The notes beneath the pieces were generated by a model, which made no database searches, was not told the origin of the DNA, and worked only from the letters and a program-made list of their open reading frames with translations. From NCBI RefSeq assembly GCF_004319545.1, contig NZ_CP036313.1, positions 1,800,501-1,864,500 on the forward strand: DNA of 64,000 nucleotides. Reading direction: 5' to 3'. Position 1 is the stretch's first letter. Each line of letters starts with the position of its first letter. Position numbers and translations under genes: made by a program. Shown in pieces: positions 40,879 to 54,496 of the stretch. The DNA is from Desulfobacter hydrogenophilus. Lineage in GTDB: Bacteria; Desulfobacterota; Desulfobacteria; Desulfobacterales; Desulfobacteraceae.

Positions 40879-41457
40879 TCATCCCTGGCCCTGGATGTTT
40901 TTTTCCTGGGGCAGGCCCGGAATGGGGCAGGGGAATCCGTGGGCGCCGAATGCCACTGGAGATCCGCAATGAAACACCAGGTCGTCCCAGGCACAGTCCG
41001 GGTGCCGGTACACCCCGGCAACGTTGCTGAAACAAGCCGGGTATATCCGGTGTTCCGGGCCCCGGGCCGAGGCGATGATGAGGATGCCCTTTTCCCGGGC
41101 GGTGTCGCACAATTGTTTCAAGGGTCCGGCAGAATTTTTATTTTCTACACCCAGACTCAGGTGGATGATGTCAAACTTTCGGCGGATACACCACGCTATT
41201 GCCTGGATCAACACCGGTACCGCTGTGCCCAGATCCCGGCTGAAAATTTTCACGGCATAGAGACCTGCATCCGGCACTTTTTCCTTAATAATACCCGCAA
41301 TGGCCGTACCGTGACCGATGTTGTCCATGAAATCGTCGGTTTGCCCAACCTGACCGGTTTCCGGATCGGTTTCGTACCCATGCCCCCCGGTGATGGGCCC
41401 CACATGGGGGTGACCTGGGTTAATGCCGCTGTCGATGATGGCGATTTCAGGCGTCAT
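40879..41457 (-). CDS. qhpE: Subtilisin-like protease of the amine dehydrogenase cluster (QhpE), truncated
   Basis: The start at 41457 (MTPEIAIIDSGIN) has AGGAA upstream and overlaps the end of qhpF. The 192-residue product has the S8 aspartate (Asp 9, IIDSG) and histidine (His 49, GHGTAIAGII), but the frame stops before a GxS serine motif. None of the three minus frames beyond the stop shows one. QhpE removes the leader of the gamma subunit in QHNDH maturation. Either a frameshift/truncation has removed the C-terminus or the family is divergent here. Confidence 0.7.
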   Translation of the reverse strand: MTPEIAIIDSGINPGHPHVGPITGGHGYETDPETGQVGQTDDFMDNIGHGTAIAGIIKEKVPDAGLYAVKIFSRDLGTAVPVLIQAIAWCIRRKFDIIHLSLGVENKNSAGPLKQLCDTAREKGILIIASARGPEHRIYPACFSNVAGVYRHPDCAWDDLVFHCGSPVAFGAHGFPCPIPGLPQEKNIQGQG

Positions 41458-43123
41458 GGGTAAATTCCTGGGGCCTGCCCTGGAAAATAAGGCCTTCATT
41501 GCCCAGGACCACCAGGTGATGGGCATGGCTGATGGCTGTTTTCCGGTGGCTGACCAGGATAATGGTTTTGTTTTTCATCAGGTCTTTCAGGGTCTGCTTG
41601 ATGCCTTCTTCTGCGGTTTTATCCAGAAAGGCAGTGGCTTCGTCCAGGATCAGGATTTTCGGATCCATCAGAATGGCCCTGGCAATGCTCAGTCGCTGTT
41701 TCTGCCCCCCGCAAAGGCGGGTGCCCCGGTCCCCCACAAGGGTGTCATACCCTTTGGGCAGCGATTCGATGAACTCATGGATCTGGGCGGCCTTGGCCGC
41801 TTTTTTTACTGTTTCGATATCTGCATCCGGTTTAAAAAACCGGATATTTTCCAGAATGGAGGTATGAAACAAAAAGGTTTCCTGGGAGACCATGGCCATC
41901 TGGGTTCTGAACCAGTTCCGGTCCAGGCTGTGGATGTCCTTTCCGCCCCAGGTGATGGTGCCGGCATCCGGGGCGTAGAGCCTCATGAAAAGGTGGCACA
42001 AGGTGGTTTTTCCGATGCCGCTTTCCCCGGCAAGCGCTGTTGTTTTTCCATGGGGAATGGTAAAGGATAGGTTCTTGAACACCGGGGTCTGGCCGTCATA
42101 GGAAAAACTTAAATCCTCTATGGCCAGGTCCTTGGCGGACAACTCCAAACTCAGCACCTGATCTCCGGTCTGATTCGTACTGGGTGAAATATCCAGGATT
42201 TCACGGACCCGTTTCAGGGCCACCTTTGATTTTTGAATGGACAATATCCCGTCGAGCAGCCCTTGGAGGGGACCGAAGACCCGGCCTTGGTACACGGAAA
42301 AAGCCACCAGGGTACCAATGGTCAAATTTCCTTCCAGGACCTTCATTCCGCCAAATCCAAATACAATTAGGGTGTTCACAATGGCAAAGGCCATGGGTAC
42401 GGAACCGGAAACCGCCCCCAGCACCTGGAACCGGAGCAGCAGGTCCAGAATCCCGGACTGTTTGGTCGACAGTTTTTCGTTTTCGCAATTTTCTGCGCCA
42501 AAGGCCCGGATGGCCGCTGTATTGGACAGGGATTCAAATAAAAAATGGGCAATACCGGCATTGGTTTTGGCAAGATCCTCGGAAAGGGCGAAAAGTTTGG
42601 GTTTGATGGCCTGGACCACCCAGACGGCAAAGGGCAGGATGGCAAGGCTCATCAGGGTCATTTCCCAGTTCAGCCAGAACAGGATGACGGCCGTGATGAT
42701 GAAGGTTAAAAAATCAAATAAGTATTTAGGAAAAATATCCGTGACCAGTGCCTGGATATCGGCCATATCCGAGGCAATCCTGGAATAAATATCCCCGATT
42801 TTGTTTTTTGAAAAATAGACCAGGGGGATTCTTTGCAGATGGCTGAACAGGTCTTCTCTCATGGCAAAAAGAATCCGGGCCGAGTATTTGGTATACAGGT
42901 ACCGGTTGGCGACCCTGACCCCGAATCCCACCACAAGTAGCAGAATCAATACCCCCAGGACCGGGAAAAGAATCCCGGGTTGATGCCCCAGAAACACCCG
43001 GTCGATGAGAATTTTGGCAAACCAGGGCTGAAGCATGCCAAGCGCCGTACTCAAGGCGCTTAAAATTAAAGAAAAGATTAATATCTTTTTGTGGGGTTTC
43101 AGGTAAGACCCCAGATAACCCAT
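41447..43123 (-). CDS. qhpF: ABC exporter of the QHNDH cluster (QhpF)
   Basis: A half-transporter with six membrane helices and an NBD: Walker A GESGIGKTT, signature LCGGQKQR (Cys instead of Ser), Walker B ILILDEATAFLD and switch His (SHRK). In characterised clusters QhpF exports the modified gamma subunit to the periplasm. The start is uncertain. The frame is open to 43375, but its first 65 codons lie in or beyond a palindromic repeat. The ATG at 43123 is the first ATG after the repeat, and coding-like sequence (PVDPSIWEQ) extends slightly upstream of it. Confidence 0.85.
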   Translation of the reverse strand: MGYLGSYLKPHKKILIFSLILSALSTALGMLQPWFAKILIDRVFLGHQPGILFPVLGVLILLLVVGFGVRVANRYLYTKYSARILFAMREDLFSHLQRIPLVYFSKNKIGDIYSRIASDMADIQALVTDIFPKYLFDFLTFIITAVILFWLNWEMTLMSLAILPFAVWVVQAIKPKLFALSEDLAKTNAGIAHFLFESLSNTAAIRAFGAENCENEKLSTKQSGILDLLLRFQVLGAVSGSVPMAFAIVNTLIVFGFGGMKVLEGNLTIGTLVAFSVYQGRVFGPLQGLLDGILSIQKSKVALKRVREILDISPSTNQTGDQVLSLELSAKDLAIEDLSFSYDGQTPVFKNLSFTIPHGKTTALAGESGIGKTTLCHLFMRLYAPDAGTITWGGKDIHSLDRNWFRTQMAMVSQETFLFHTSILENIRFFKPDADIETVKKAAKAAQIHEFIESLPKGYDTLVGDRGTRLCGGQKQRLSIARAILMDPKILILDEATAFLDKTAEEGIKQTLKDLMKNKTIILVSHRKTAISHAHHLVVLGNEGLIFQGRPQEFTHDA

Positions 43124-43183
43124 CTGCTCCCAGATAGACGGATCAACCGGTTTTTTTTCAGTGTTTCCTGAAGCATGGCCTGA

Positions 43184-43317
43184 GCGAAAACCTGGAAATT
43201 TTGTCGAGTACAAGGCGGACACAAATTTTAACCGCAGGCATATATTGAATATTCCGAGGATTAAAATTTGTGTCCAACGAAGTAATCGGCAAAATTTACG
43301 ATTTTCGGTCGGGCATG
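43184..43317. repeat. Palindromic repeat (family D) at the U32-A / qhpF junction
   Basis: Arms: 43184 on (CCTGAGCGAAAACCTGG, AAATTTTGTCGAGTAC, GGACACAAATTTTAA) against the complement of the segment ending at 43317 (CCGAAAATCGTAAATTTTG, GGACACAAATTTTAA). The element supplies the last codons and the stop of the U32-A gene and the apparent N-terminal extension of qhpF, so it has inserted at or created this gene boundary. Confidence 0.8.
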
Positions 43318-44303
43318 AAGTAGCACATGTATCCTGAATCACAATATTCAGGGGTTTGGCGAAGCTGTCTGGCATAATCTATTATCCTGTCGTGGTTTTG
43401 GGTTTGCAGTGCCTTGTCCCGGACGGCTTTGACCAGTTGCAGACTGCCCATTTTTCGGTGAAACGATGCTTCTCTTCCCACTAGTTTAACGGCGGTGACG
43501 CCCCAGTCCCTGAAATCGCCGAATTGGCACAGACTGCAGGGGCCGTTGGGCAGGCCGTCCTGCTGGAAACTGGAGCCGCAATTGTTCTGATACCAAAGAT
43601 AGGTTTTAAAGTGTGCCAGGCGTTCCTTTAAATCCGGGTAAACGGTTTCATTTGCGGTTCCGGGGCTGTTGGTTCCCAGGGGTGTGATTGACCAGTTGGT
43701 GAGACAAAATGCGCCCAGGGTGTGGCTGGTCTGGCAGAATCCTTCTTCAAAATAGCATCCGTCGTTCACCGCGAACACTTCAAACTCCATGTCATCCCTG
43801 TGCTTGGTAACGATTGCCTTTATTTCAGGCAGGGTCAACTGGCGGGGCAGAATGACTCGCTTAACCCCCAGGGATTTGTAAAACGGTACGGAAAAGGAAT
43901 TGAAACAGGCACCCAGGCTGCTTAAATGAATTCCTAGGGCCAGGTTCAGCCGGGACAGTTCAACCAGCAGGTTCAAATCCGAAACAATCAATGCGTCCAC
44001 GCCCATGTCCGCAAGCTGGCTGCACAAAGTTAGAATATAATCCATGCCGTTTTCAGGATAAAACGAGGCATTCAGGGTGATGCTCACTTTGACGGCATTC
44101 TCATGGGCCACAGCAATCAGGGTCTCAAGATCCTTTAATGACGTGATGTTGGCCTGGTCCGGGTTTCTTCGGTTCATCCACAGGTTTTCACTGAAAATCT
44201 CGTCCCATTCCCTTGTTTTTAAGCCACAGTACAGTTCATCCGCACCGTTGGAAATTAGCATTTCCAGCTCTTCAAGGGCGCGGATGGGGGTAATGATATT
44301 CAT
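43296..44303 (-). CDS. U32 family protein, UbiU-like (4Fe-4S, putative hydroxylase)
   Basis: 335 residues with the U32 fold: N-terminal GADELYCGLK, then NGCYFEEGFC-like Cys pair (C183-x6-C190, the spacing of UbiU C169/C176), C200, and C256/C259 before FGDFRDWGVTAVKLVGR. These probably bind a 4Fe-4S cluster. UbiU-UbiV are O2-independent hydroxylases of ubiquinone synthesis. Here the pair sits among QHNDH maturation genes where no flavin monooxygenase is found. Proposed role: anaerobic hydroxylation of the gamma-subunit tryptophan (inference). It starts within the stop of the partner gene (ATGA). Confidence 0.8.
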   Translation of the reverse strand: MNIITPIRALEELEMLISNGADELYCGLKTREWDEIFSENLWMNRRNPDQANITSLKDLETLIAVAHENAVKVSITLNASFYPENGMDYILTLCSQLADMGVDALIVSDLNLLVELSRLNLALGIHLSSLGACFNSFSVPFYKSLGVKRVILPRQLTLPEIKAIVTKHRDDMEFEVFAVNDGCYFEEGFCQTSHTLGAFCLTNWSITPLGTNSPGTANETVYPDLKERLAHFKTYLWYQNNCGSSFQQDGLPNGPCSLCQFGDFRDWGVTAVKLVGREASFHRKMGSLQLVKAVRDKALQTQNHDRIIDYARQLRQTPEYCDSGYMCYFMPDRKS

Positions 44304-45187
44304 GCCAGCCCCCCTTGCCAGACCAATCGCAGTCCATGGGTTTCGGCGGTTTTAAGAAGATGTCTCAGCATGGATGCCGTGTAGGGATAGAATATGGTGT
44401 TACCGTTTTGAAGCAGAGCCGGCCCACTACCCGGATGGCTGAGCTTGAACCGGTGGGTGGTGCAGGGGGCGTGGCAGCCGGCACTGAAATTGAATCTGGC
44501 ACCGGGCCGTCCGTTCATTCCCGCTGTAATGCAGGCCCGGCCTGTTGTGACATAGCCAAAGGGAAAATAAACGGAAACGTCAAGGTCTGAACCGTTCATT
44601 GCCAAGGCATCCGGATCGAGATCGGCATGGGGAAAAAGATCCTGCTCAAATCTTTGAATGCCAAGGTTTTTGGCCAGGGTTCTCATATTGGCATGTTGGA
44701 ACGAACAGTCATTTAAGCAGGCAGCGGCTGCTGCCGGGGTGATGTTTTTTGTGTCCAGACGGGGATCTTTAAAGCCTTTATTGAAGAGTCTTCCCATGGA
44801 CAGGCTGAATCCGGGAAATGTTTGTTTCAGATAAAGCAGGACACCCAGATCGTTTACCACCACTTCAGCGGCATGATCCCATTGATGGAATGTGTCAAAC
44901 AATTTACCCCAGGCCTTTATGCCGCCGTCGGTGAGAACCGGTGTCAGAAGGGTGACGGGCAATCCCTTTTGATCCGCAGCTTTCAACTGATTTTTCAAAT
45001 CTTTCATATCCGGCAGGCGCTTGGGAGAGAACTCGTCGCCGATATAGATACGGTCGGGTTGGGACACGATATCTTCAATATCCTGCCAGTGAAAATCATT
45101 TTCAGAGAAAAAGGTTTTAAGGCTTTCCCAGGGCTGGAGCGATTCATTGTCTGTGCCGCCACCCACCCAATGCCGGGCGATTTCCAT
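44300..45187 (-). CDS. U32 family protein, UbiV-like partner
   Basis: The start at 45187 (MEIARHWVGGG) has AAAGG eight bases upstream; an ATG five codons earlier overlaps the cytochrome stop and is possible by coupling. The 295-residue product resembles UbiV: RIYIGDEFSPKR against UbiV's IYLGEAVCSKR, VVVNDLGVLLYL, and the C-terminal Cys set GRAC...GCHAPC (C219, C238, C242 in this numbering). The first UbiV cysteine (of the EAVCSKR motif) is absent, but CLNDC (157/161) offers alternatives. It partners the UbiU-like protein, four-base overlap. Confidence 0.78.
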   Translation of the reverse strand: MEIARHWVGGGTDNESLQPWESLKTFFSENDFHWQDIEDIVSQPDRIYIGDEFSPKRLPDMKDLKNQLKAADQKGLPVTLLTPVLTDGGIKAWGKLFDTFHQWDHAAEVVVNDLGVLLYLKQTFPGFSLSMGRLFNKGFKDPRLDTKNITPAAAAACLNDCSFQHANMRTLAKNLGIQRFEQDLFPHADLDPDALAMNGSDLDVSVYFPFGYVTTGRACITAGMNGRPGARFNFSAGCHAPCTTHRFKLSHPGSGPALLQNGNTIFYPYTASMLRHLLKTAETHGLRLVWQGGLA

Positions 45188-45201
45188 GTTTGATCCTTTC
45201 A

Positions 45202-45735
45202 TCAGTCGGCCTGGGCTGTGACCGGCTCAAAAAATTTCTGTCCGTTTCTCATCTCATGGTTGTGGCAGTCCTTGCAGGGCTGGGATGCAATGTTTTTAAT
45301 CAGCTTTTTGTGGATCTCGACCTGGTCCTCCGGTTTATGGTTTTCAACATTTTTACAGGAAGAACATCGAGAATTTGGGACATGGCTCCAATAGCCCGGT
45401 TCTTTGTCTAATTCAAGAAAAAGAGGCTCTTCCTTGGGAAGGATCGGGGCATCCGGATCCCGCTTGAAATGCTCGACAAGAAACCGGACAGCGGATTTGT
45501 TCATGTCCATCCATCCCTTAACTCCAGGATCGAAATGACATTTGGCACAGTTTCTGTGGTTTTTGGCTGTTCCTGACCCCTTCCATTTTTCAATGGGAGC
45601 TTTCATTTCATGACAGACGACACAGGTTTTATCCTGAATATAACTCACTGATAATTCATGGGCAGCCAGTGCGATGGCAGGCAGAACAATGACGATGAGG
45701 ATCAGGATTAATTTTTTTTTGGATTTGGATTGCAT
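45202..45735 (-). CDS. Tetrahaem NapC/NrfH-like membrane-anchored cytochrome c
   Basis: 177 residues: N-terminal anchor/signal (KKLILILIVIVLPAIALA) and four haem sites: CVVCHEM, CAKCHF, CSSCK and CKDCH. The first has the NapC/NrfH-type trailing Met. The third is CxxCK, a lysine-ligand motif otherwise known from NrfA. Such proteins link periplasmic redox enzymes with the menaquinone pool, so this one probably takes electrons from the dihaem alpha subunit of the amine dehydrogenase. Located between qhpB and the U32 pair. Confidence 0.85.
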   Translation of the reverse strand: MQSKSKKKLILILIVIVLPAIALAAHELSVSYIQDKTCVVCHEMKAPIEKWKGSGTAKNHRNCAKCHFDPGVKGWMDMNKSAVRFLVEHFKRDPDAPILPKEEPLFLELDKEPGYWSHVPNSRCSSCKNVENHKPEDQVEIHKKLIKNIASQPCKDCHNHEMRNGQKFFEPVTAQAD

Positions 45736-45765
45736 ACTTCTACTTTGTTTCCTTTTTCAATAACG

Positions 45766-45794
45766 AAGCGGGCCGGAACTTTCCCGGCCCGCTT
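45766..45794 (-). other. Stem-loop between qhpB and the cytochrome gene
   Basis: AAGCGGGCCGG / CCGGCCCGCTT, 11-bp stem with a 7-base loop, in the 68-bp intercistronic gap. No T-run follows on the minus strand, so it is more likely an mRNA stability or partial termination element that would favour qhpCB over the downstream genes. Confidence 0.6.
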
Positions 45795-45803
45795 AAAAAA
45801 AGA

Positions 45804-46832
45804 TTATTGTTTGGACAGCATCTGAGTGGTTACCCCGTCGGACATCAACGGAATAATAGTCAGCAATTCCAGGGAATCGGCATCAAACACGCTTATGTCG
45901 GGTCCACCGGGACCGGCATAGATTTTTTTCCCGTCAGACGTAATGGCCACCGTATAGTTGGTGCCGGTTTCCAAATGGGCCATCTTCAGGGTTTCTCCGG
46001 TGGTCCGGTCCACCTTGATCAACTCATCCATGACTGCATAGATGTATTTTTGATCAGGAGACAACATACTGGAATATGCAAACCAGACGTTTTTGCCCCG
46101 CAGGTCATCCATTTCCCCGCTGTTTTTATCAATGAAAAAGTAGCCCAATCCCTTTGCATCATAGTACGGGTTGACAAAAATCCCGTGGTCACCGGGGCTG
46201 CCGGGCTGCCAGTTAGCCAGACAGTTTTTCATATCCTCGGGCTTTTTCGTGTTCAAAAAAGGCATGAGCATGTCTCGTTTACCGGTTTTCAGGCTGAACC
46301 GTTCAATGTCCTGTCCCACCAGGACCAGGTGATCCGGATCATTTCTCAAGACCACCGGCTGGGTATAGCTGGTGGGAATGGGATAATTTTTAATCATTCG
46401 TTTTTTTTCGATGTCGTAGACCACCAGTTGATCGGGCAGAACATTCAACCGGGGAATGTTTTGTTTTTTCTTGACAATGGAGCAGCAGAGAAACAATTGT
46501 TTCCCGTCATTGGATATGTTCATGCCGAAAATGGACACTTTGCTCAACTCCGTTGAAAACGGATAGGTCTCAGCCAGGGTGTTGGTGACGGTATCCACGG
46601 CATAAATGGAGTGAATCGCATTCAGGTACAACCGCTTGCCGTCGGACGAGCAGGCCGTGTTGATGATAAAATCATTGAACTCAATGGTTTTGATAACCGT
46701 GTCGGTGTCGCAGTCAATGACCTGGACGGCATTGTTCACCACGGCGTAAATATAATCCTTGGCCCCTGCAGTGGAGGCGCTCAGGAACGCCAGGATGCAG
46801 ACCGTGATCAATATCAGAACTGTTTTTTTCAT
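45804..46832 (-). CDS. qhpB: QHNDH beta subunit (beta-propeller)
   Basis: 342 residues with a signal peptide (cleavage near STAGA) and repeated propeller blades of the YVTN type (KDYIYAVVNNAVQVIDCDTD, SSDGKRLYLNA, SPDQKYIYAVMDELIKVDR, TSDGKKIYAGPGGPDISVFD). It is the seven-bladed subunit that packs against the CTQ-bearing gamma subunit in the periplasm. It lies 15 bp after qhpC. Confidence 0.9.
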   Translation of the reverse strand: MKKTVLILITVCILAFLSASTAGAKDYIYAVVNNAVQVIDCDTDTVIKTIEFNDFIINTACSSDGKRLYLNAIHSIYAVDTVTNTLAETYPFSTELSKVSIFGMNISNDGKQLFLCCSIVKKKQNIPRLNVLPDQLVVYDIEKKRMIKNYPIPTSYTQPVVLRNDPDHLVLVGQDIERFSLKTGKRDMLMPFLNTKKPEDMKNCLANWQPGSPGDHGIFVNPYYDAKGLGYFFIDKNSGEMDDLRGKNVWFAYSSMLSPDQKYIYAVMDELIKVDRTTGETLKMAHLETGTNYTVAITSDGKKIYAGPGGPDISVFDADSLELLTIIPLMSDGVTTQMLSKQ

Positions 46833-46847
46833 CCCGTATGTCTCCTT

Positions 46848-47171
46848 TTATCGTTTGTTTACGAAATTAAGGTTTCTCCAGTCCCGTTCAATGGCCTGGC
46901 ACTGGTTCTGATAATGGGGAAAGTTGGTCACATTGTCCGGGGTCTGGGCCGGCCACCAGCAGGTTTCGGAACAGGCGCTGAAATCCCTGGCACTGGACAG
47001 GCAGTTGCTCATGGGGGGTTCGGGCCGGGGATTGGTTTCCCACCCGGTGTCAAAGATCGTGGTGCAGCCGATGGGCATGCTGGTCATGATGGGATTGTCC
47101 GACATTCCCTGGACCTCATGCGCCAATTTTTTTGCTTTTTTATTCAGTGGTTTTAACCCTTTTTTCTTCAT
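46848..47171 (-). CDS. qhpC: QHNDH gamma subunit precursor (CTQ cofactor peptide)
   Basis: 107 residues, cofactor-bearing small subunit. Every cross-link position known from the family is present with the right spacing: C36/E45 and C57/D63 and C71/D79 for the thioether bridges, and C67/W73 for cysteine tryptophylquinone (SACSETCWWPAQ). The conserved end is DWRNL. Residues 1 to about 28 (MKKKGLKPLNKKAKKL...) form the leader that stays on during export and is later removed by QhpE. Trp 73 must gain two oxygens during maturation. An extra Cys (91) is present. Confidence 0.95.
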   Translation of the reverse strand: MKKKGLKPLNKKAKKLAHEVQGMSDNPIMTSMPIGCTTIFDTGWETNPRPEPPMSNCLSSARDFSACSETCWWPAQTPDNVTNFPHYQNQCQAIERDWRNLNFVNKR

Positions 47172-47237
47172 CTGATCCTCCTTAAGTCTTTGTAACGGTA
47201 TGACATTGGCTTGTTTCTTGAGTCGGTAACCCCCATG

Positions 47238-48083
47238 TTAAAATATGTAGGTCAGGCGCAGGTAAGTCCAGGAGCCATCTGTATATGCATCAGAGTCAAC
47301 GTCATGCATGTACCTTAAATTGAGCATGAGGTTTTCCTGAAGTGCATAACCCAGGTTGATGCCTAATTTTAGATTTTCACCCGGGCCATCTATACGATTA
47401 CCATCGGAATCCTCCTGATCATCAAAATCTTTCCACCATGCAGCCTGGAAAGCCAGACGAAGCTTGTCCGTCACTGCATAGCCGACGGCTGCCTCAAGTT
47501 CAAATGCATCCGATACATCTACATCCTGGTCCTCATCTTTCTGCCAGTAGTTCACGCATACGTCCAGAGACCAAGGACCGGGATACCAGCCAAAGGCCAG
47601 TTGGTGCTGAAACCACCAGGAATCAGTGCTGACTTCATCTGTGCCTGTCGGGGTATAGACAAATTCCCAGAATGAGAGAAATACTTGTTTTTTAAAATCT
47701 TCATATAAAAAGATAAAAGGGCCGACCACCAGATCTCCCAAGCCGTTATACGTACCTATATCTGCGGAGTCGTTATCATTACTTTCAACGGAAATATCCG
47801 TTAAAGCAATAATGCCGTTAACTCCCCAGGTCTTTCCAAATACTTTTCCGGCAAAATAAACCGGCCTGAAGGCGGCATAAGCCACGTCCACACCGACATC
47901 AAACGTCGTGCCGTCTTCTGTTTTGTAATCAGGCAGATGCTGATACCCGAAATAACTGACAAGGACCTTGGTTCCAACGGGTGCCGAACTGTTGTCCAGG
48001 GGATCCAGGACATCGGCTGAAGTCGGGGCCGTTAATCCGGCAAAAGCGATCAAAATAAACAAAGCAAGCCATAATTTTTTCAT
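47238..48083 (-). CDS. Outer-membrane beta-barrel transporter-like protein
   Basis: 281 residues: signal peptide (1-23), then alternating aromatic strands typical of the phenol-degradation meta-pathway (MetA/SphA-like) barrels, ending with a terminal strand YLRLTYIF (C-terminal Phe as in outer-membrane proteins). Lying inside the qhp operon, it probably lets amines enter the periplasm; this is inference from position. A family C repeat separates it from qhpD. Confidence 0.8.
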   Translation of the reverse strand: MKKLWLALFILIAFAGLTAPTSADVLDPLDNSSAPVGTKVLVSYFGYQHLPDYKTEDGTTFDVGVDVAYAAFRPVYFAGKVFGKTWGVNGIIALTDISVESNDNDSADIGTYNGLGDLVVGPFIFLYEDFKKQVFLSFWEFVYTPTGTDEVSTDSWWFQHQLAFGWYPGPWSLDVCVNYWQKDEDQDVDVSDAFELEAAVGYAVTDKLRLAFQAAWWKDFDDQEDSDGNRIDGPGENLKLGINLGYALQENLMLNLRYMHDVDSDAYTDGSWTYLRLTYIF

Positions 48084-48131
48084 TTTATTTTCTTATCCTC
48101 TATTCATATTTTAAAGTTTTTTGTATCGGTT

Positions 48132-48192
48132 CATATAACAGCCATGGGCTGACTTGGTCTATCAGTATCCAGGCTCAGCCCACAACGAAACA
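48132..48192 (+). repeat. Family C hairpin repeat between qhpD and the barrel gene
   Basis: AACAGCCATGGGCTGACTTG, CTATCAGTATCC, AGGCTCAGCCCACAACGAAA: the clearest copy, able to fold as GGGCTGA-CTTGG / CCAGG-CTCAGCCC. It is inside the qhp operon in antisense orientation relative to the genes. Confidence 0.8.
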
Positions 48193-48202
48193 ATAAAGTA
48201 AT

Positions 48203-49367
48203 TCAACAAATTATTGAGACTTTCTTATAAATTGATTCAGGCAGCGGCTCATGCCCCCTGAGCATGGACAGGTTGTCCAGAAAATCCGGGACCTGTACGG
48301 AAAGCCGGGCATATGCGTTCAGACCGGTTTCAATCCACGATTTAATCCATTGGCAATAGTGCAGATTGGGCGAAAGCAGGCTTCCCTGCCGGATACCGGC
48401 TTCATGGTAACAGCCGCCGGCACAGATGGATGCGGCCCAACAGCCATCACAGGGCTTTTTATTGGAAAGCGCCGCATTTTTCCGGAACGCTGCCAGTTTG
48501 GGCCGGTGAAAAGCCTGCTTCGGCAAACCCCAGATCCAGCAGATGGGTTAGGGATTGATAGATATCCCCCACCTCTTTGGCCAGGGTGACCCGGGCCACC
48601 ACCGGTTTGGTCATGCCGGCGCCCAGCAGTTTTTTGACCCCGGGCAGAATCACATCATAGGATGGCGACCCGTCCGGGAAACGGCGGAACCGGTCGTGGG
48701 CGGCCCTGATACCGTCAAGGCTCACGGTCATACCAATTCGGTGTTCCCGGATGAATGCAATCACCTTGTCGGTCAGGAGGGTGCCGTTGGTGGTTATGGC
48801 ATAGGAGATCTTCTTCCCTGAATCCAGGGCTTTCCTGTCTGCGTAGGCAATGGTGTCCGCTATCAGCTTTGTATTGAGCAGGGGCTCCCCGCCAAAGAAA
48901 ACCAATACCAGATCCAACAGGTTTCCACTGTTGTCAAAAAGAAAATCCACGGCCTGCCGCGCCACGGCCCGGTCCATGGGTGTGGAGACCCGGTCGGTGC
49001 CGTTCCCGTCATCGTGGTAACAATACCGGCACATGAGGTTGCAGGCCTGGGTGACATGGAGAACCAGGGTGTTGATGGGCGTGTCAACCGGGTATTCCGG
49101 TTGTTCCTTGGCCGATGTCCCTTCAGAGATCAGGACATAACTGGCCAGAAGGTCGGTCCACAATGCCTGTTTTTCCCTATCTGTCCCTTCCATAATGGTA
49201 AACAGATCAGATTGTGTAAAAACTTGTCCGGCCGTGCCGTGATCCAGAATAGATCCGGCAGGGGATTGGGGTTCCAGTTCAAATATGGTCCCGGTCCGTG
49301 TTAAAAAGACAAATTCTTTGCCCTGGGCCGTAAAGCGTTTATGATCTGCAATTTTTACCTGTTCCAT
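48203..49367 (-). pseudogene. qhpD: Radical SAM maturase QhpD, frameshifted and internally deleted
   Basis: The first part (48459-49367) has the peptide-binding N-terminus and the radical SAM motif CNLMCRYCY (C109, C113, C116), FFGGEPLLN and SLDGIRAAHDRFR. After GFSP the frame runs to a stop. The SPASM-type C-terminus (PCDGCWAASICAGGCYHEAG) is found in another frame at 48203-48526. Characterised QhpD is about 476 residues; the two parts total about 390. About 80-100 residues, including expected auxiliary-cluster cysteines, are missing between GFSP and the SPASM end. QhpD forms the intra-peptide thioether bridges in QhpC. The break could be genuine or an assembly error. Confidence 0.8.
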
Positions 49368-49374
49368 GGGTTGC

Positions 49375-51012
49375 CTATTTTATTTGGGGGATAAAATCCG
49401 GAACCGTGACTGCCAATCTGACCTTGTCGGTCAATTTGCCTGATCCGTCTTCAAATGAAGCGGTTACGGCAATGAGGCCCACGCCTTCTCTGTGCTGCTT
49501 TCTGGTTTTAATGGGCCCATAGCTGGTCACCGGTGTATAAAGTCCATTGGCAATGGAGGCGTTCAGGTATTGCATGTCATCATCGTCTTCCCGGGTTTTT
49601 TCCTCTGACAGGTGCCATTGGGCATTGACGGGCTCCAGGACCAGGTTGTCCGCAGTCCCCTGCTTGCCGTCCGGGCCAAAGGCAATCCCCCGTGCAACAA
49701 ACTGAACTCCCTGGGGCGGATAGGCCGCACCGCAGCTGACCCGCGCCCGTCCGATACGGGGGGACACGGCAATGGCATCGACTTTTTCAAATACCTTGAG
49801 CCCCTTGTAGGTCAGATCTTTTAAGTTGATGTCAGTCATTCCCACAGACGCCTGCTTGCCCACATCCACGGTCACGGTCAGGCCGGACGGGCCGGACTGG
49901 ACAATGTCCAACACCTTTATTCCGGCATTGGAAAAGGACAGATCCGCCGGAGACGCATTGGCCGGCAGATTGACGCCTACCAGGGTCAAGGTCTGGGGTT
50001 TGCCGGTATTTTTTTTCAGGCTCTGGGGAAAGGCGGCCATGATCCGCGCTGGTCCGTCGGCCTTGTAGAAAGATTCATTGCCGTAAGCATTGGTATCCTG
50101 AACCACGATCCACCATTTTCCCTTGAACTCGCCTGTGTCGGCATCCAGGTCAAACACGCCTTCAATTTGTCCGGTTGACGGGGTTGGGGCCAGTTTGTAT
50201 CTGAGATGGTATTCGCCGTACAGGGCGGCAGTTCCCACGGAAGAAACGGAAACGCCGTTCTCGTATTGTATATTTTTCTGGATACTGTACTCGTCTTCTC
50301 CTTTGGCCGTGTCCGGGGTCAGGGTGTAGGTGCCCTGATAATAGCCCATCCCAGGCTGATACCCGGCAATGGTCCAGGAACCGGTTAAATCCTGATCTTT
50401 TCTGTTTTTGAGCCACTCCCGGTATTCAGGGGTTTCAAATGGAAGCAGTTTGGACAGGTGCTGATTTAATTCCTTGGACTCTTTGAACCAATTCATTTCC
50501 CGCATCTGGGGCACGATAGTGGGATAGTAACCCAGGTGAAGGTTCCGGACTTCGTTCCACTGGCTTTGTGTATTCCGGTGGGATTTGATTTTCCCATAGG
50601 TGTGGCACCGGACACAGGCCGTAAAAATGCGCAGTTCTAAATCATTTTTTGGAATTTCCCTGTACTGGCTGTTTTCATCGCTGTTGATATAGGCGATGTT
50701 CCTGGACTCCGTGGGTGTTAAGCACAGGTCCCGGCTCAGTTCTTTAATGACCGGATAAAATTCCTCGTCACTTAACGGAGCGCTGTTGAGCCGGATCATC
50801 CGGTCCACCACCACTTTCCACTCTTCCATTGTCTTGCGGGTTTCTTCAATCACCTCAAGACGGCCCTGGGGATCTGGTTTGTGGCAGGCCGAACATTTTT
50901 GCCGAACCATGGATTGCTCGTTAAAAAGCCCCTCCCCAAAAGCGGGCGACCCTGCTAACAGCACTGATAGCAGCAGGATGACCCCCATGTTCCATTTTGC
51001 TGTTTTGCTCAT
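49375..51012 (-). CDS. qhpA: QHNDH alpha subunit (dihaem cytochrome c)
   Basis: The start at 51012 (MSKTAKWNMGV) has AAGGAG upstream. The 545-residue product has a signal peptide (LLLSVLLAGSPAFG), two c-haem sites (CSACH, CVRCH) in the N-terminal 130 residues, then beta-barrel/Ig-like domains (DLTGSWTIAGYQPGMGYYQG; GKWWIVVQDTNAYGNESFY). This is the layout of the amine dehydrogenase alpha subunit, which passes electrons from CTQ to the respiratory chain. It is preceded by a terminator hairpin after the aldehyde dehydrogenase gene and followed at 7 bp by qhpD. Confidence 0.93.
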   Translation of the reverse strand: MSKTAKWNMGVILLLSVLLAGSPAFGEGLFNEQSMVRQKCSACHKPDPQGRLEVIEETRKTMEEWKVVVDRMIRLNSAPLSDEEFYPVIKELSRDLCLTPTESRNIAYINSDENSQYREIPKNDLELRIFTACVRCHTYGKIKSHRNTQSQWNEVRNLHLGYYPTIVPQMREMNWFKESKELNQHLSKLLPFETPEYREWLKNRKDQDLTGSWTIAGYQPGMGYYQGTYTLTPDTAKGEDEYSIQKNIQYENGVSVSSVGTAALYGEYHLRYKLAPTPSTGQIEGVFDLDADTGEFKGKWWIVVQDTNAYGNESFYKADGPARIMAAFPQSLKKNTGKPQTLTLVGVNLPANASPADLSFSNAGIKVLDIVQSGPSGLTVTVDVGKQASVGMTDINLKDLTYKGLKVFEKVDAIAVSPRIGRARVSCGAAYPPQGVQFVARGIAFGPDGKQGTADNLVLEPVNAQWHLSEEKTREDDDDMQYLNASIANGLYTPVTSYGPIKTRKQHREGVGLIAVTASFEDGSGKLTDKVRLAVTVPDFIPQIK

Positions 51013-51029
51013 AAATTCATTCTCCTTAT

Positions 51030-51072
51030 TAAAAAAAGAATACGCCCCGGTAATCCGAATCACCGGGGCGTA
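51030..51072 (-). terminator. Intrinsic terminator between aldehyde dehydrogenase and qhpA
   Basis: TACGCCCCGGT / ACCGGGGCGTA, 11-bp perfect stem, followed on the minus strand by TTCTTTTTTT. It is placed between the two cistrons, so it may attenuate read-through from the aldehyde dehydrogenase into the qhp genes. Confidence 0.85.
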
Positions 51073-51078
51073 TAACGT

Positions 51079-52503
51079 CTATTCCTGTGGTGGCTTGGCC
51101 ACACTGATCACCTGGTTTACGGTATAGGCCTTGAGGCCCTCAAGACCAAATTCAGATCCCACACCGGACAGCTTGACCCCGCCGAAAGGTGCCATGGGAT
51201 GCAGTTTTCCATGGGCATTGACCCAGACCGTGCCGGCTTCAAGGCGCATGGCCACTTCTTTGGCCTTTGCCGGATCATTGGACCATGCCGATCCCCCCAG
51301 CCCCACATCAAGGGCGTTTGCCCGTTCCACAGCCTCATTAATCGTTGAATATTTGATAATGGGCAGGGCCGTGCCAAACTGTTCTTCTTTAACCAGGTCC
51401 ATGTCGTCGGTCACATCAGCCACCAGGGTCAAAGGATAAAAGTATCCCGGACTGGAAGCGGGTTCACCCCCGCACAGCACCCGGGCACCTTGTTTTTTTG
51501 CATCGTCCACATATCGTTTGACAGTTTCCAGCTGCGGCGCATTGCCCAGGGGCCCGATAAGATGGGTTTCATCCAGGCCGTCCCCCACGGGGATTTTGCT
51601 TACGTATTCGGTGAATTTTTCACAAACCGTGTCATAGTCATCCTCATGGACATAAAGACGTTTCAGTGCCGCACAGGTCTGGCCGGCATTGATGAAGCAT
51701 CCCCAGAACAAGGGTTCCAGCAGGGGCGTGATATCGGTTCCCGGCAGGATAATACCGGCATCGTTGCCGCCCAGCTCCAGGGTCAGGCTTTTTAAATTGG
51801 ACGCTGCCCGGCCCATGATGGTTTGTCCCACGGGAATGGAACCGGTAAACACTATTTTGTCGATCTCCTTGTGGGCTGACATGGCATTGCCGATGTCGGA
51901 ACTGCCCGAGACCACATTGAGGACCCCCGGGGGCAGCACTTCATTAAGCAGTTCCACCAGACGCAGGGTGGACAACGGCGTGTAGGAAGCCGGTTTCAGT
52001 ACCACGGTACACCCCACCCGGATGGCGGGCATGATGTGCCAGACCGCAATGAGCAGGGGCCAGTTCCACGGCGTGATGGATCCCACAACGCCGATGGGTT
52101 TTCTGACCAGTTCAATGGTGTCCTCCGGGTTTTCGTCCACAAGTTCCGTCTCAAGCTTCAGGGATGCCGTGACCTGGGTCCAGGCCTGGCATCCGCCGGC
52201 CTCAAACATGGAGCCGGGTCCGGAAAGGGTTTTGCCTTGTTCACGGGTGATCAGCCGGGCCAGTTCCACCTGGTGCTGTTCAATAATACCGGCCATTTGG
52301 TTCATGATCTCCACCCGTTTTTCATCAGCCATGCCCGACCATGCCGGAAACGCCTTCCGGGCCGCGGCAACCGCTTCATTCAGCTGTTCAACCGTGCCCT
52401 TGGGGCATTGGGCAAAAACCTCACCCGTTGCCGGATTGATCACGTCGAAAGTCGTGTCTGAAAACACTTTCTCGCCATTGATGATCATCGCATAATCCGT
52501 CAT
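51079..52503 (-). CDS. Aldehyde dehydrogenase (NAD(P)-dependent)
   Basis: 474 residues, ALDH superfamily, with catalytic Cys 277 (GQTCAALKR) and Glu 243 (LELGGNDAG), NAD-binding ITPWNWPL and FTGSIPVGQ. Placed directly before the amine dehydrogenase genes, it probably oxidises aldehydes made by amine oxidation to acids. AAGGAGG precedes the ATG. It is divergent from the NtrC-type regulator, with palindromes between. Confidence 0.95.
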   Translation of the reverse strand: MTDYAMIINGEKVFSDTTFDVINPATGEVFAQCPKGTVEQLNEAVAAARKAFPAWSGMADEKRVEIMNQMAGIIEQHQVELARLITREQGKTLSGPGSMFEAGGCQAWTQVTASLKLETELVDENPEDTIELVRKPIGVVGSITPWNWPLLIAVWHIMPAIRVGCTVVLKPASYTPLSTLRLVELLNEVLPPGVLNVVSGSSDIGNAMSAHKEIDKIVFTGSIPVGQTIMGRAASNLKSLTLELGGNDAGIILPGTDITPLLEPLFWGCFINAGQTCAALKRLYVHEDDYDTVCEKFTEYVSKIPVGDGLDETHLIGPLGNAPQLETVKRYVDDAKKQGARVLCGGEPASSPGYFYPLTLVADVTDDMDLVKEEQFGTALPIIKYSTINEAVERANALDVGLGGSAWSNDPAKAKEVAMRLEAGTVWVNAHGKLHPMAPFGGVKLSGVGSEFGLEGLKAYTVNQVISVAKPPQE

Positions 52504-52885: not shown

Positions 52886-53050
52886 GCCTGTTTAGGAATG
52901 AGTCTAAAATAATTTAACCTGGGAGCGCGGGCGTCTCGCCCGCATATAGCAAAATGGGCAAGTTATTTAAGACCCGTTCCTTAAAAATTGGGGGGAATTG
53001 GTTCTCATCCTTATGAAATTGCAGCCGATTCATCAATCTTTAAACAGGCC
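52886..53050. repeat. Family B repeat copy 2, split by an inserted element
   Basis: Compared with copy 1 (38881-38952, opposite orientation), this copy has GCCTGTTTA, then an 86-bp insertion, then TTAAAAATTGGGG, and continues with GATTGCAGCCGATTCATC to TAAACAGGC. The uninterrupted sequence GCCTGTTTAAAAATT of copy 1 shows the pre-insertion state. Confidence 0.8.
52895..52980. mobile_element. 86-bp MITE-like element inserted in a family B repeat
   Basis: Terminal inverted repeats GGAATGAGTCTAAAATAA / complement GGAACGGGTCTTAAATAA, with GCGGGCGTCTCGCCCGC hairpin inside. Flanked by TTA on both sides (52892-52894 and 52981-52983), consistent with a 2-3 bp target duplication. No coding capacity. 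Confidence 0.65.
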
Positions 53051-53095
53051 CTGAACATGGACATCCGTATCAACCTGGAAAATGGAGAACGTACC

Positions 53096-54496
53096 GTGGC
53101 CGCCATCCTGATCGTTGATGACGATCCTATTTTTTGTACCCCTTTTACGGCTTATCTAAAAAAACTGGGGCACCAGTGCCAGACGGCCCAGACGTTTTCC
53201 CAGGGAGCGGCACTTGCCCGGGACGTGGATTTTGACGTGGTGTTTCTGGATGTCCTCCTGCCTGATGCCAATGGTCTGGAGTGCATCAATTATTTTATTA
53301 ATGCCTCGTCATCCCCGGAATTGATAATCATCACCGGAAAATCGGAGCTCTCAGGGGCGGAAATGGCCTTGGAAAACGGGGCCTGGGATTATCTGGAAAA
53401 ACCCCCTGCCTACGACGACGTCAAACTCACCCTGAAGCGGGCATTACAGTTCAGGGACAATAAAATGGTCTCGCCCACCCGGGAAGGTTTCAAATCGGAT
53501 TTTATCATCGGCCGGAGCCCTGTTTTGAAAAAATGCCTGGATCTGGTGGCCAAATCGGCCCGGACAGACGGTAACCTTTTTATTTCCGGAGAAACCGGTA
53601 CCGGCAAGGATTTGATCGCCAATGCGGTTCATCTGAACAGTGAAAGATCCGGCGCCCCGTTCATTGCCGTGGACTGCACCAACCTGCCGGACACCCTGGT
53701 TGAAAACCTGCTGTTCGGCCATGCCAAAGGCGCCTTTACCGGTGCCGTAGACAAAAATGAAGGACTGATCAAACAGGCAGACAAGGGAACCTTGTTCCTC
53801 GACGAGATCGGGGACCTGTCCACGGCCGCCCAGAAATCCATTTTAAGGGTGCTCCAGACCAAAACCTTCCGCCCTTTGGGAATGAATAAGGAACTGAGCT
53901 GTGATTTCAGGTTGATTTCCGCCACCAACCGGGATTTGCAAGCTATGGTGAAACAAAGGACGTTCAGGAAAGACCTTTTCTATCGCCTGGTCACCCACCA
54001 CATTCACCTGCCGCCTTTGCGGGAACGGCCCGATGACATCGTGCTTCTGGCCGATTATTACATGGAAAAAATCTGCGCCCAGTTTGGTATCCGGCCAAAG
54101 GCCATGTCCGATGATTTTATTGATACCCTGATGGTGTACGACTGGAAAGGCAATATCAGGGAATTGATCTCCGTGCTTCATGCCGCCGTGGCCAGCGGCC
54201 TGAACGAACCCCGGCTCAATCCCCACCATTTGCCCGTGGCCCTGAGGATTTTTTCCAGGAAAAAGACATGGGAGGAACAGCGCCCCCTGGAACAGGGCAT
54301 TGAAAACGGGCTCGGGACGGATGAAACCGGATTTCCCTGCCTGAAGGATTTCAGGCACCTGAATGAATCCCAGTACCTGGATGCCCTGGTTCGATTGTCC
54401 GGGGGGCATATTGAAAAAGCCTGCAGCATGGCCGGGGTATCCCGGTCCGGACTCTACCACCTGCTGGAAAAGCATAACAAAAAATTGAATCCATAA
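53096..54496 (+). CDS. NtrC-family sigma-54-dependent response regulator
   Basis: The start is placed at GTG 53096, which has GGAGA seven bases upstream and opens directly at the receiver domain (VAAILIVDDDPIF). The frame extends to 52988, but those codons are repeat sequence. The receiver has the phospho-Asp in VVFLDVLLPDANG; the AAA+ domain has GETGTGKD, the sigma-54 contact loop GAFTGA and LFLDEIGDL; the Fis-type HTH ends the protein (GHIEKACSMAGVSRSGLYHLL). It is divergent from the amine oxidation genes, the likely targets. No cognate kinase is adjacent. Confidence 0.92.
   Translation: MAAILIVDDDPIFCTPFTAYLKKLGHQCQTAQTFSQGAALARDVDFDVVFLDVLLPDANGLECINYFINASSSPELIIITGKSELSGAEMALENGAWDYLEKPPAYDDVKLTLKRALQFRDNKMVSPTREGFKSDFIIGRSPVLKKCLDLVAKSARTDGNLFISGETGTGKDLIANAVHLNSERSGAPFIAVDCTNLPDTLVENLLFGHAKGAFTGAVDKNEGLIKQADKGTLFLDEIGDLSTAAQKSILRVLQTKTFRPLGMNKELSCDFRLISATNRDLQAMVKQRTFRKDLFYRLVTHHIHLPPLRERPDDIVLLADYYMEKICAQFGIRPKAMSDDFIDTLMVYDWKGNIRELISVLHAAVASGLNEPRLNPHHLPVALRIFSRKKTWEEQRPLEQGIENGLGTDETGFPCLKDFRHLNESQYLDALVRLSGGHIEKACSMAGVSRSGLYHLLEKHNKKLNP

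Follow-up and report, generated by a model that had tools for sequence, protein, structure and literature searches.

Which factor hydroxylates the precursor tryptophan of cysteine tryptophylquinone (CTQ) when a quinohemoprotein amine dehydrogenase (qhp) operon encodes no QhpG? This question is raised by a 64,000-nucleotide stretch of the Desulfobacter hydrogenophilus genome (GCF_004319545.1, contig NZ_CP036313.1, positions 1,800,501 to 1,864,500), here called the window, in which two U32-family genes, U32b and U32a, sit between qhpB and qhpF. In crosslinked QhpC, QhpG inserts two O atoms from O2 into the precursor Trp (PMC7876137), and the U32 proteins UbiU and UbiV (UbiUV) hydroxylate aromatic ring precursors without using O2, even when O2 is present (PMC10470549). 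From our genomic and structural comparisons we consider it probable (roughly 0.75) that the U32 pair forms an iron-sulfur heterodimer which takes the place of QhpG and is dedicated to hydroxylating the CTQ-precursor Trp without O2. The genes of the system in the window are as follows.

49375..51063, minus strand: qhpA, diheme alpha subunit (TIGR03908, E 2e-94, over cut-off).
48459..49367, minus strand: N-terminal part of qhpD (radical S-adenosylmethionine core), a broken gene (TIGR03906 positions 3-288).
48203..48526, minus strand: C-terminal part of qhpD (SPASM end), in another frame (TIGR03906 positions 381-463).
46848..47171, minus strand: qhpC, gamma subunit and CTQ precursor (NF037958, E 1e-36, over cut-off).
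45804..46832, minus strand: qhpB, beta subunit (TIGR03907, E 4e-32, under cut-off).
44300..45202, minus strand: U32b, UbiV-like (U32 fold by AlphaFold2 model; cluster cysteines at UbiV positions, Ser59 at the first).
43296..44303, minus strand: U32a, UbiU-like (PF01136, E 6e-31).
41447..43375, minus strand: qhpF, ABC exporter, longest open reading frame (PF00664/PF00005).
40879..41526, minus strand: qhpE, truncated subtilisin-like protease (NF049966 positions 2-172 of 219, E 3e-35, under cut-off).

U32 genes and QhpG in qhp-bearing genomes

We used the window's QhpC as query against the genome collection and mapped the loci of the best 80 of 578 matches with family profiles; where one or both genes were missing from a locus, the search was extended to the whole genome. 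Our tally comprises the 95 mapped loci less duplicates (L054/L056 and L106/L107 share genomes), plus six Pseudomonadota genomes from an even draw of 398, in which seven carried QhpC and one had already been counted; locus L025 (G381), with a sub-cut-off QhpC containing stops, was left out. As the 80 loci are the best matches to the window's QhpC, the sample leans towards the U32 type and is neither random nor independent.

The tally stands at 92 genomes or plasmid records with qhp genes: U32 genes of the qhp clade with no QhpG found in 62, QhpG with no such U32 gene found in 23, both in one and neither in six. The near mutual exclusion of QhpG and the U32 pair, which the initial annotation had put forward for examination, is thus borne out, and the recurrence of the pair in many qhp loci shows that its position in the window is not a matter of chance. 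The 62 U32-only cases consist of 52 loci with both genes (the window included), five loci with U32b alone, three of which are truncated at a contig or locus boundary, and five genomes with the genes elsewhere. The 23 QhpG-only cases are 12 named loci, two genomes with QhpG outside the locus, three plasmid references and the six Pseudomonadota. No qhp-type U32a was found in the 20 QhpG-only genomes searched for it (best 83 bits, versus 402-470 for intact ones), and no qhp-type U32b in the 14 searched. The pair occurs in Thermodesulfobacteriota, Pseudomonadota, Bacillota, Acidobacteriota, Nitrospinota and one Sericytochromatia genome.

The references for QhpG were three plasmid proteins from qhp loci, annotated as flavin adenine dinucleotide (FAD)-dependent monooxygenase (two) or NAD(P)-binding protein; two match the peptidyl tryptophan dihydroxylase structure 7CTQ (515 and 152 bits), and the one run against the curated QhpG model NF049967 passes. 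These references score 634-817 bits. In the window's genome three matches reached E<=0.01, the best at 29.8 bits, and nine other Desulfobacterota genomes gave no more than 32.6 bits. A genome-wide search thus agrees, for QhpG, with the absence of a flavin monooxygenase noted earlier for the locus. In 40 more U32-type genomes, with at most 35 candidates scored per genome and L057 not included, nothing appeared at E<=1e-15 except one 57.9-bit match, which was not accepted as QhpG: it falls short of the curated cut-off and resembles a halogenase more closely. The search for QhpG covered the whole genome in 49 of the 62 U32-type cases and the locus in the other 13. Distant QhpG proteins, for instance from Candidatus Binatia, score 138-149 bits when complete, and one of these exceeds the curated cut-off (284 versus 240); a flavoprotein of G441 stays under it (182 versus 240). 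In L041, a 41-bit flavoprotein lies beside qhpB, and this record was counted as having neither gene.

The order U32b-U32a was conserved in all 51 loci scored (the 52 loci with both genes less L080, where U32a is cut by a contig end), with qhpF next in 45. In L168, L169 and L171 the pair lies apart from qhpA and qhpB, in a cassette with qhpD, qhpF and qhpE. QhpD, QhpF and QhpE are encoded in 50, 49 and 42 of the 52 U32-pair loci, some of which are cut by contig ends, and in 16/16 QhpG loci. Because these three factors are present in both types, QhpG is the known factor missing from U32-type loci.

Fold and cysteines of the U32 proteins

U32a was assigned to the U32 family by PF01136. Its best NCBIfam model is UbiU (E 1e-24), at 87 bits versus a cut-off of 440, and profile comparison with E. 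coli UbiU (hhalign) gave Prob 99.5. The AlphaFold2 model of U32a (predicted local distance difference test score, pLDDT, 86) has 139 Protein Data Bank (PDB) matches at E<=1e-3, led by the U32 structure 5D88 (E 2.5e-7). Pfam and NCBIfam searches gave no match for U32b. Its model (pLDDT 85) matches 5D88 as the only PDB entry at E<=1e-3 (E 4e-4), with modest template modelling scores of 0.35/0.41.

The ligand cysteines of the [4Fe-4S] clusters of UbiU and UbiV have been established (PMC6747719). In U32a, C183, C190, C200 and C242 align with the UbiU cluster cysteines C169, C176, C193 and C232, and Cys occupies these positions in 57, 57, 57 and 49 of 57 rows. In U32b, Cys is found at the UbiV ligand positions C39, C180, C193 and C197 in 61, 62, 62 and 60 of 62 rows. 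The full set of four cluster cysteines is thus a property of the clade and not of the window's own U32b, which has Ser59. The Cys motifs of the pair (C183-x6-C190, GRAC and GCHAPC) are as first described. Four further U32a cysteines, C256, C259, C321 and C327, are kept in 57, 57, 56 and 56 of 57 rows and are absent at these positions in 14/14 UbiU rows; they likely bind a second metal centre.

Phylogeny and a sister pair

In our trees, which are quick searches with long branches, the qhp U32a (57 rows, support 85) and the qhp U32b (62 rows, support 77) each fall on one side of a branch. Both clades adjoin a sister pair and lie far from UbiU and UbiV, and U32a does not group with TrhP or RlhA either. 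A firm placement in a peptidase or tRNA-modification clade, which would have spoken against the role suggested at first, was not obtained; nor did either of the other two outcomes named as refuting in the initial annotation, a qhpG homologue elsewhere in the genome or U32 pairs missing from other qhp loci, come about. The separate clades, together with a UbiU model score far under the cut-off, argue against orthology with UbiU and UbiV. A plain UbiV identity of U32b was likewise set aside, as profile comparisons are weak and the kinship consists of cysteine positions and the modelled fold.

The sister pair, found in Desulfobacterota without QhpC, is the nearest clade of both U32a and U32b and has the same gene order. 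In 8/8 rows its U32a lacks the cysteines corresponding to C242 and C321. For the eight genomes in the trees, lipA adjoins the pair in four (L207/L244, L208/L246, L213 and L216; the lipA of L246 matches TIGR00510 over cut-off), a DnaJ-like gene in four and neither in three, all within the stretches examined; no lipA lies in the stretches of L212/L260, L206/L242, L214/L251 and L249. Because this pair exists in Desulfobacterota without qhp, the U32 fold alone does not set the substrate. In all, 20 stretches with U32b-like genes comprised qhp-type pieces (L241, L259), the sister pair, U32b-like genes lacking a U32a-like gene next to them, and remoter relatives. We also observed lipA near U32b-like genes in L209 and L215/L252. 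In L243, L245, L247 and L250, U32b-like genes group with the U32b of the sister pair, with no U32a-like match in the stretch examined.

QhpC and the state of the window's operon

Aligned to 1JJU chain C, in which these residues form CTQ and the thioethers, the window's QhpC keeps the CTQ residues (Cys and the second Trp of CWW) and three thioether Cys-Asp/Glu pairs. The CTQ residues are kept in both the U32 type and the QhpG type, and CWW is present in 57/59 U32-type rows, the other two (L063_1 and L071_1) being spurious reading frames. An extra Cys near the C-terminus occurs in 56/59 U32-type rows (two of the 59 spurious) and 13/21 QhpG-type rows, and a further crosslink is possible.

All six genes, qhpA to qhpF, were recognised by family models in the window (6/6), with the two U32 genes between qhpB and qhpF, as the initial annotation had it. 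That annotation missed the decay of qhpD, qhpE and U32b. By comparison with relatives, model positions ~289-380 of qhpD (~90 residues) are absent and the rest lies in another frame, and qhpE ends just short of the catalytic-Ser motif, with no continuation found downstream in any frame. Ser59 replaces the first of the four cluster cysteines in the window's U32b, the sole such row of 62. The window's genome has one QhpC match, and relatives carry unbroken qhp genes (e.g. L043, L044). With damage to qhpD, qhpE and a U32b cluster ligand, the CTQ pathway of the window has probably ceased to work, and the window's pair cannot be assumed to be functional here; an assembly error is a possible source of the damage.

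Transcription on the minus strand, 40879-52503, follows the order aldehyde dehydrogenase, qhpA, qhpD, porin-like gene, qhpC, qhpB, NapC/NrfH-like cytochrome, U32b, U32a, qhpF, qhpE. The longest open reading frames overlap by 1 base (NapC-U32b), 4 (U32b-U32a), 80 (U32a-qhpF) and 80 (qhpF-qhpE), a tight spacing of the kind expected of a single operon. The three genes in it that are not named qhp or U32 are listed below.

51079..52503, minus strand: aldehyde dehydrogenase (sequence read by eye).
47238..48083, minus strand: outer-membrane porin-like protein, between qhpD and qhpC (PF13557, E 1e-24).
45202..45735, minus strand: NapC/NrfH-like multiheme cytochrome, between qhpB and U32b (PF03264, E 5e-8; TIGR03153, E 6e-9).

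The aldehyde dehydrogenase likely acts on the aldehyde product; two plasmid records carry annotated genes of this kind close to qhp, and profile matches occur in further loci. A relative of the porin-like gene is present in 11/95 mapped loci (duplicates counted). The NapC/NrfH-like cytochrome stands immediately 5' of U32b in 10/51 pair loci, and could connect the periplasmic amine dehydrogenase with the quinone pool. Divergent from the operon lies a regulator (52988-54496, plus strand) whose sequence, inspected by eye, is of response-regulator and sigma-54 type; the qhp genes of Pseudomonas nitroreducens are likewise flanked by a sigma-54-dependent regulator.

Oxygen and lifestyle

The pair had been expected to track with anaerobic life, and our results do not bear this out. 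COX1 (PF00115), the heme-copper oxidase family, which includes nitric oxide reductases too, was matched in 37/42 U32-type genomes, 20/20 QhpG-only genomes and the 1/1 genome with both. In total 58 of these 63 genomes gave a match, which exceeded the curated cut-off in 56. The matching genomes include those of U32-type Bacilli and that of the window, with a single match. A clean lifestyle rule for U32 versus QhpG is therefore ruled out. The five genomes without a COX1 match are all of the U32 type, which is no more than a hint.

Proposed role and alternatives

The suggestion that the pair is an O2-independent Trp hydroxylase stands in so far as the pair takes the place of QhpG in several phyla; its tie to anaerobes has fallen away. 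By analogy with known U32 hydroxylases we infer the hydroxylation of Trp, the partnership of U32a and U32b, and the O donor. In the mechanism that we propose, QhpD would first make the thioethers in QhpC, after which U32a and U32b, each holding one [4Fe-4S] cluster as in UbiU-UbiV, would hydroxylate the second Trp of CWW twice without O2. The O donor would likely be prephenate, which has been reported as O donor (PMC11574389, citing a 2024 paper). The last step, oxidation to the quinone, may draw on the QhpA hemes and, among Desulfobacterota, also on the NapC-like cytochrome. With less assurance, though still as more likely than not, the pair would be the first O2-independent peptide hydroxylase, a multi-cluster U32 enzyme that would install both CTQ hydroxyls with oxygen from prephenate, the sister pair pointing to a wider protein-modifying class.

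Several observations weigh against this proposal. Neither gene was found in L041 (a plasmid record only), L049, L059, L088, L089 and L106/L107, that is, in five genomes and one plasmid record. In L016 (G344) the pair lies beside a QhpC with CWW and Thr in place of the CTQ cysteine, and in L170 (G404) no qhpD, qhpE or qhpF lies beside the pair. The pair is only distantly related to UbiU and UbiV: E. coli UbiU scores 37-56 bits against qhp U32a (one without a match), versus 315-486 against true UbiU, and by profile U32b shows weak similarity to UbiV (Prob 6.6, E 0.0055, 90 columns). The fourth UbiU ligand position is substituted in 8/57 U32a rows. U32b-like genes occur outside qhp, in 39/395 Desulfobacterota genomes at E<=1e-6 (at most six candidates scored per genome), of which nine have QhpC over cut-off; this rules out U32b as a qhp-specific protein. 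The pair is not confined to genomes without oxidases. Finally, L112 (G443) has the U32 pair together with a flavoprotein that passes the curated QhpG model (288 versus a cut-off of 240), ~4 kb beyond qhpE.

The reading of L112 as a plain QhpG locus was rejected. Within the 20-kb locus only QhpG is seen, but the U32 pair is nearby in the wider stretch. The flavoprotein has a long tree branch; as the curated model takes it for QhpG, the genome was counted as having both. This genome (L166/L167) offers a natural case for studying a possible division of labour between the U32 pair and QhpG. In L016, the cofactor of the product may differ.

Of the alternatives, the one that survives best is that the pair takes part in qhp maturation in a different capacity (for instance electron delivery, chaperoning or a proteolytic step), the Trp being hydroxylated by an unrelated oxygenase or by heme/peroxide chemistry at QhpA. 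The U32 family is annotated as peptidase, QhpA is diheme by family, the similarity of U32b to UbiV profiles is weak as noted above, and with oxidase-family matches in 37/42 genomes the U32-type hosts may meet O2. Against it, QhpG is the one known factor missing from loci that otherwise encode QhpD, QhpF and QhpE, and the four-Cys sets of U32 hydroxylases are kept in the pair. We regard this alternative as improbable.

We give clearly less credence to the view that the pair and QhpG mark lineages, having been inherited along with their loci without functional replacement. The QhpD tree shows three switches of state, and in 3/3 independent pairs QhpG changes the opposite way. Because there are only three switches, the genome counts are not independent, and p 0.25 is too high for significance, which is a further point against replacement. 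One switch concerns L118, a gammaproteobacterium nested in a QhpG group; its genome carries the pair and gave no match to QhpG. This, with the spread of the pair over six lineages, speaks for replacement. Least credible is an ordinary UbiUV-type quinone hydroxylase or tRNA/rRNA hydroxylase lying in the operon by chance, as the UbiU name of the closest curated family for U32a and the UbiUV-like pair organisation might suggest, given the distinct U32 clades, the qhp linkage of the pair in 51 loci, a separate UbiV gene with UbiU beside it in 10/10 Pseudomonadota U32-type genomes searched, and separate TrhP- and RlhA-like genes in the window's genome.

Comparison with known systems

CTQ biogenesis as described in PMC7876137 requires O2 via QhpG. 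If the proposed replacement is true, an O2-independent route in several phyla would explain qhp maturation without O2, and U32 oxidases would be extended from quinones and RNA to proteins. Hydrophobic quinone substrates have been named as an obstacle to an in vitro UbiUV assay (PMC6747719); crosslinked QhpC would offer a small protein substrate for U32 chemistry and for questions about the O donor. In open-access papers, we found no literature joining quinohemoprotein amine dehydrogenase or tryptophylquinone with U32.

The sister pair of Desulfobacterota is the nearest relative and shares the gene order, and differs in its genomes without QhpC, its lipA or DnaJ-like neighbours and the lack of Cys at C242 and C321. 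The U32 RNA hydroxylases TrhP and RlhA, for which dependence on prephenate has been reported in print, share the family and the cysteines at the C183, C190 and C200 positions, but are encoded by separate genes in the window's genome and occupy a separate tree branch. Lysine and glycine oxidases matured by LodB and GoxB carry CTQ. These NCBIfam maturases are, by profile matches, flavoproteins related to QhpG and not U32 proteins. QhpG itself (PMC7876137, structure 7CTQ) resembles the U32 pair in operon context and in the proposed reaction on the Trp of QhpC, whereas it is an FAD flavoprotein of a different family, and both O atoms that it inserts come from O2 (PMC7876137). A parallel in organisation is UbiU-UbiV, the O2-independent ubiquinone hydroxylase of E. 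coli (PMC6747719, PMC10470549), likewise two adjacent U32 genes, in which the four cluster-Cys positions of each protein align and with which the qhp pair would share the hydroxylation of an aromatic ring. The qhp pair differs in its own distant clades, its linkage to qhp, its proposed peptidyl-Trp substrate, a gene order of U32b then U32a instead of ubiU then ubiV, and the four extra conserved cysteines of its U32a.

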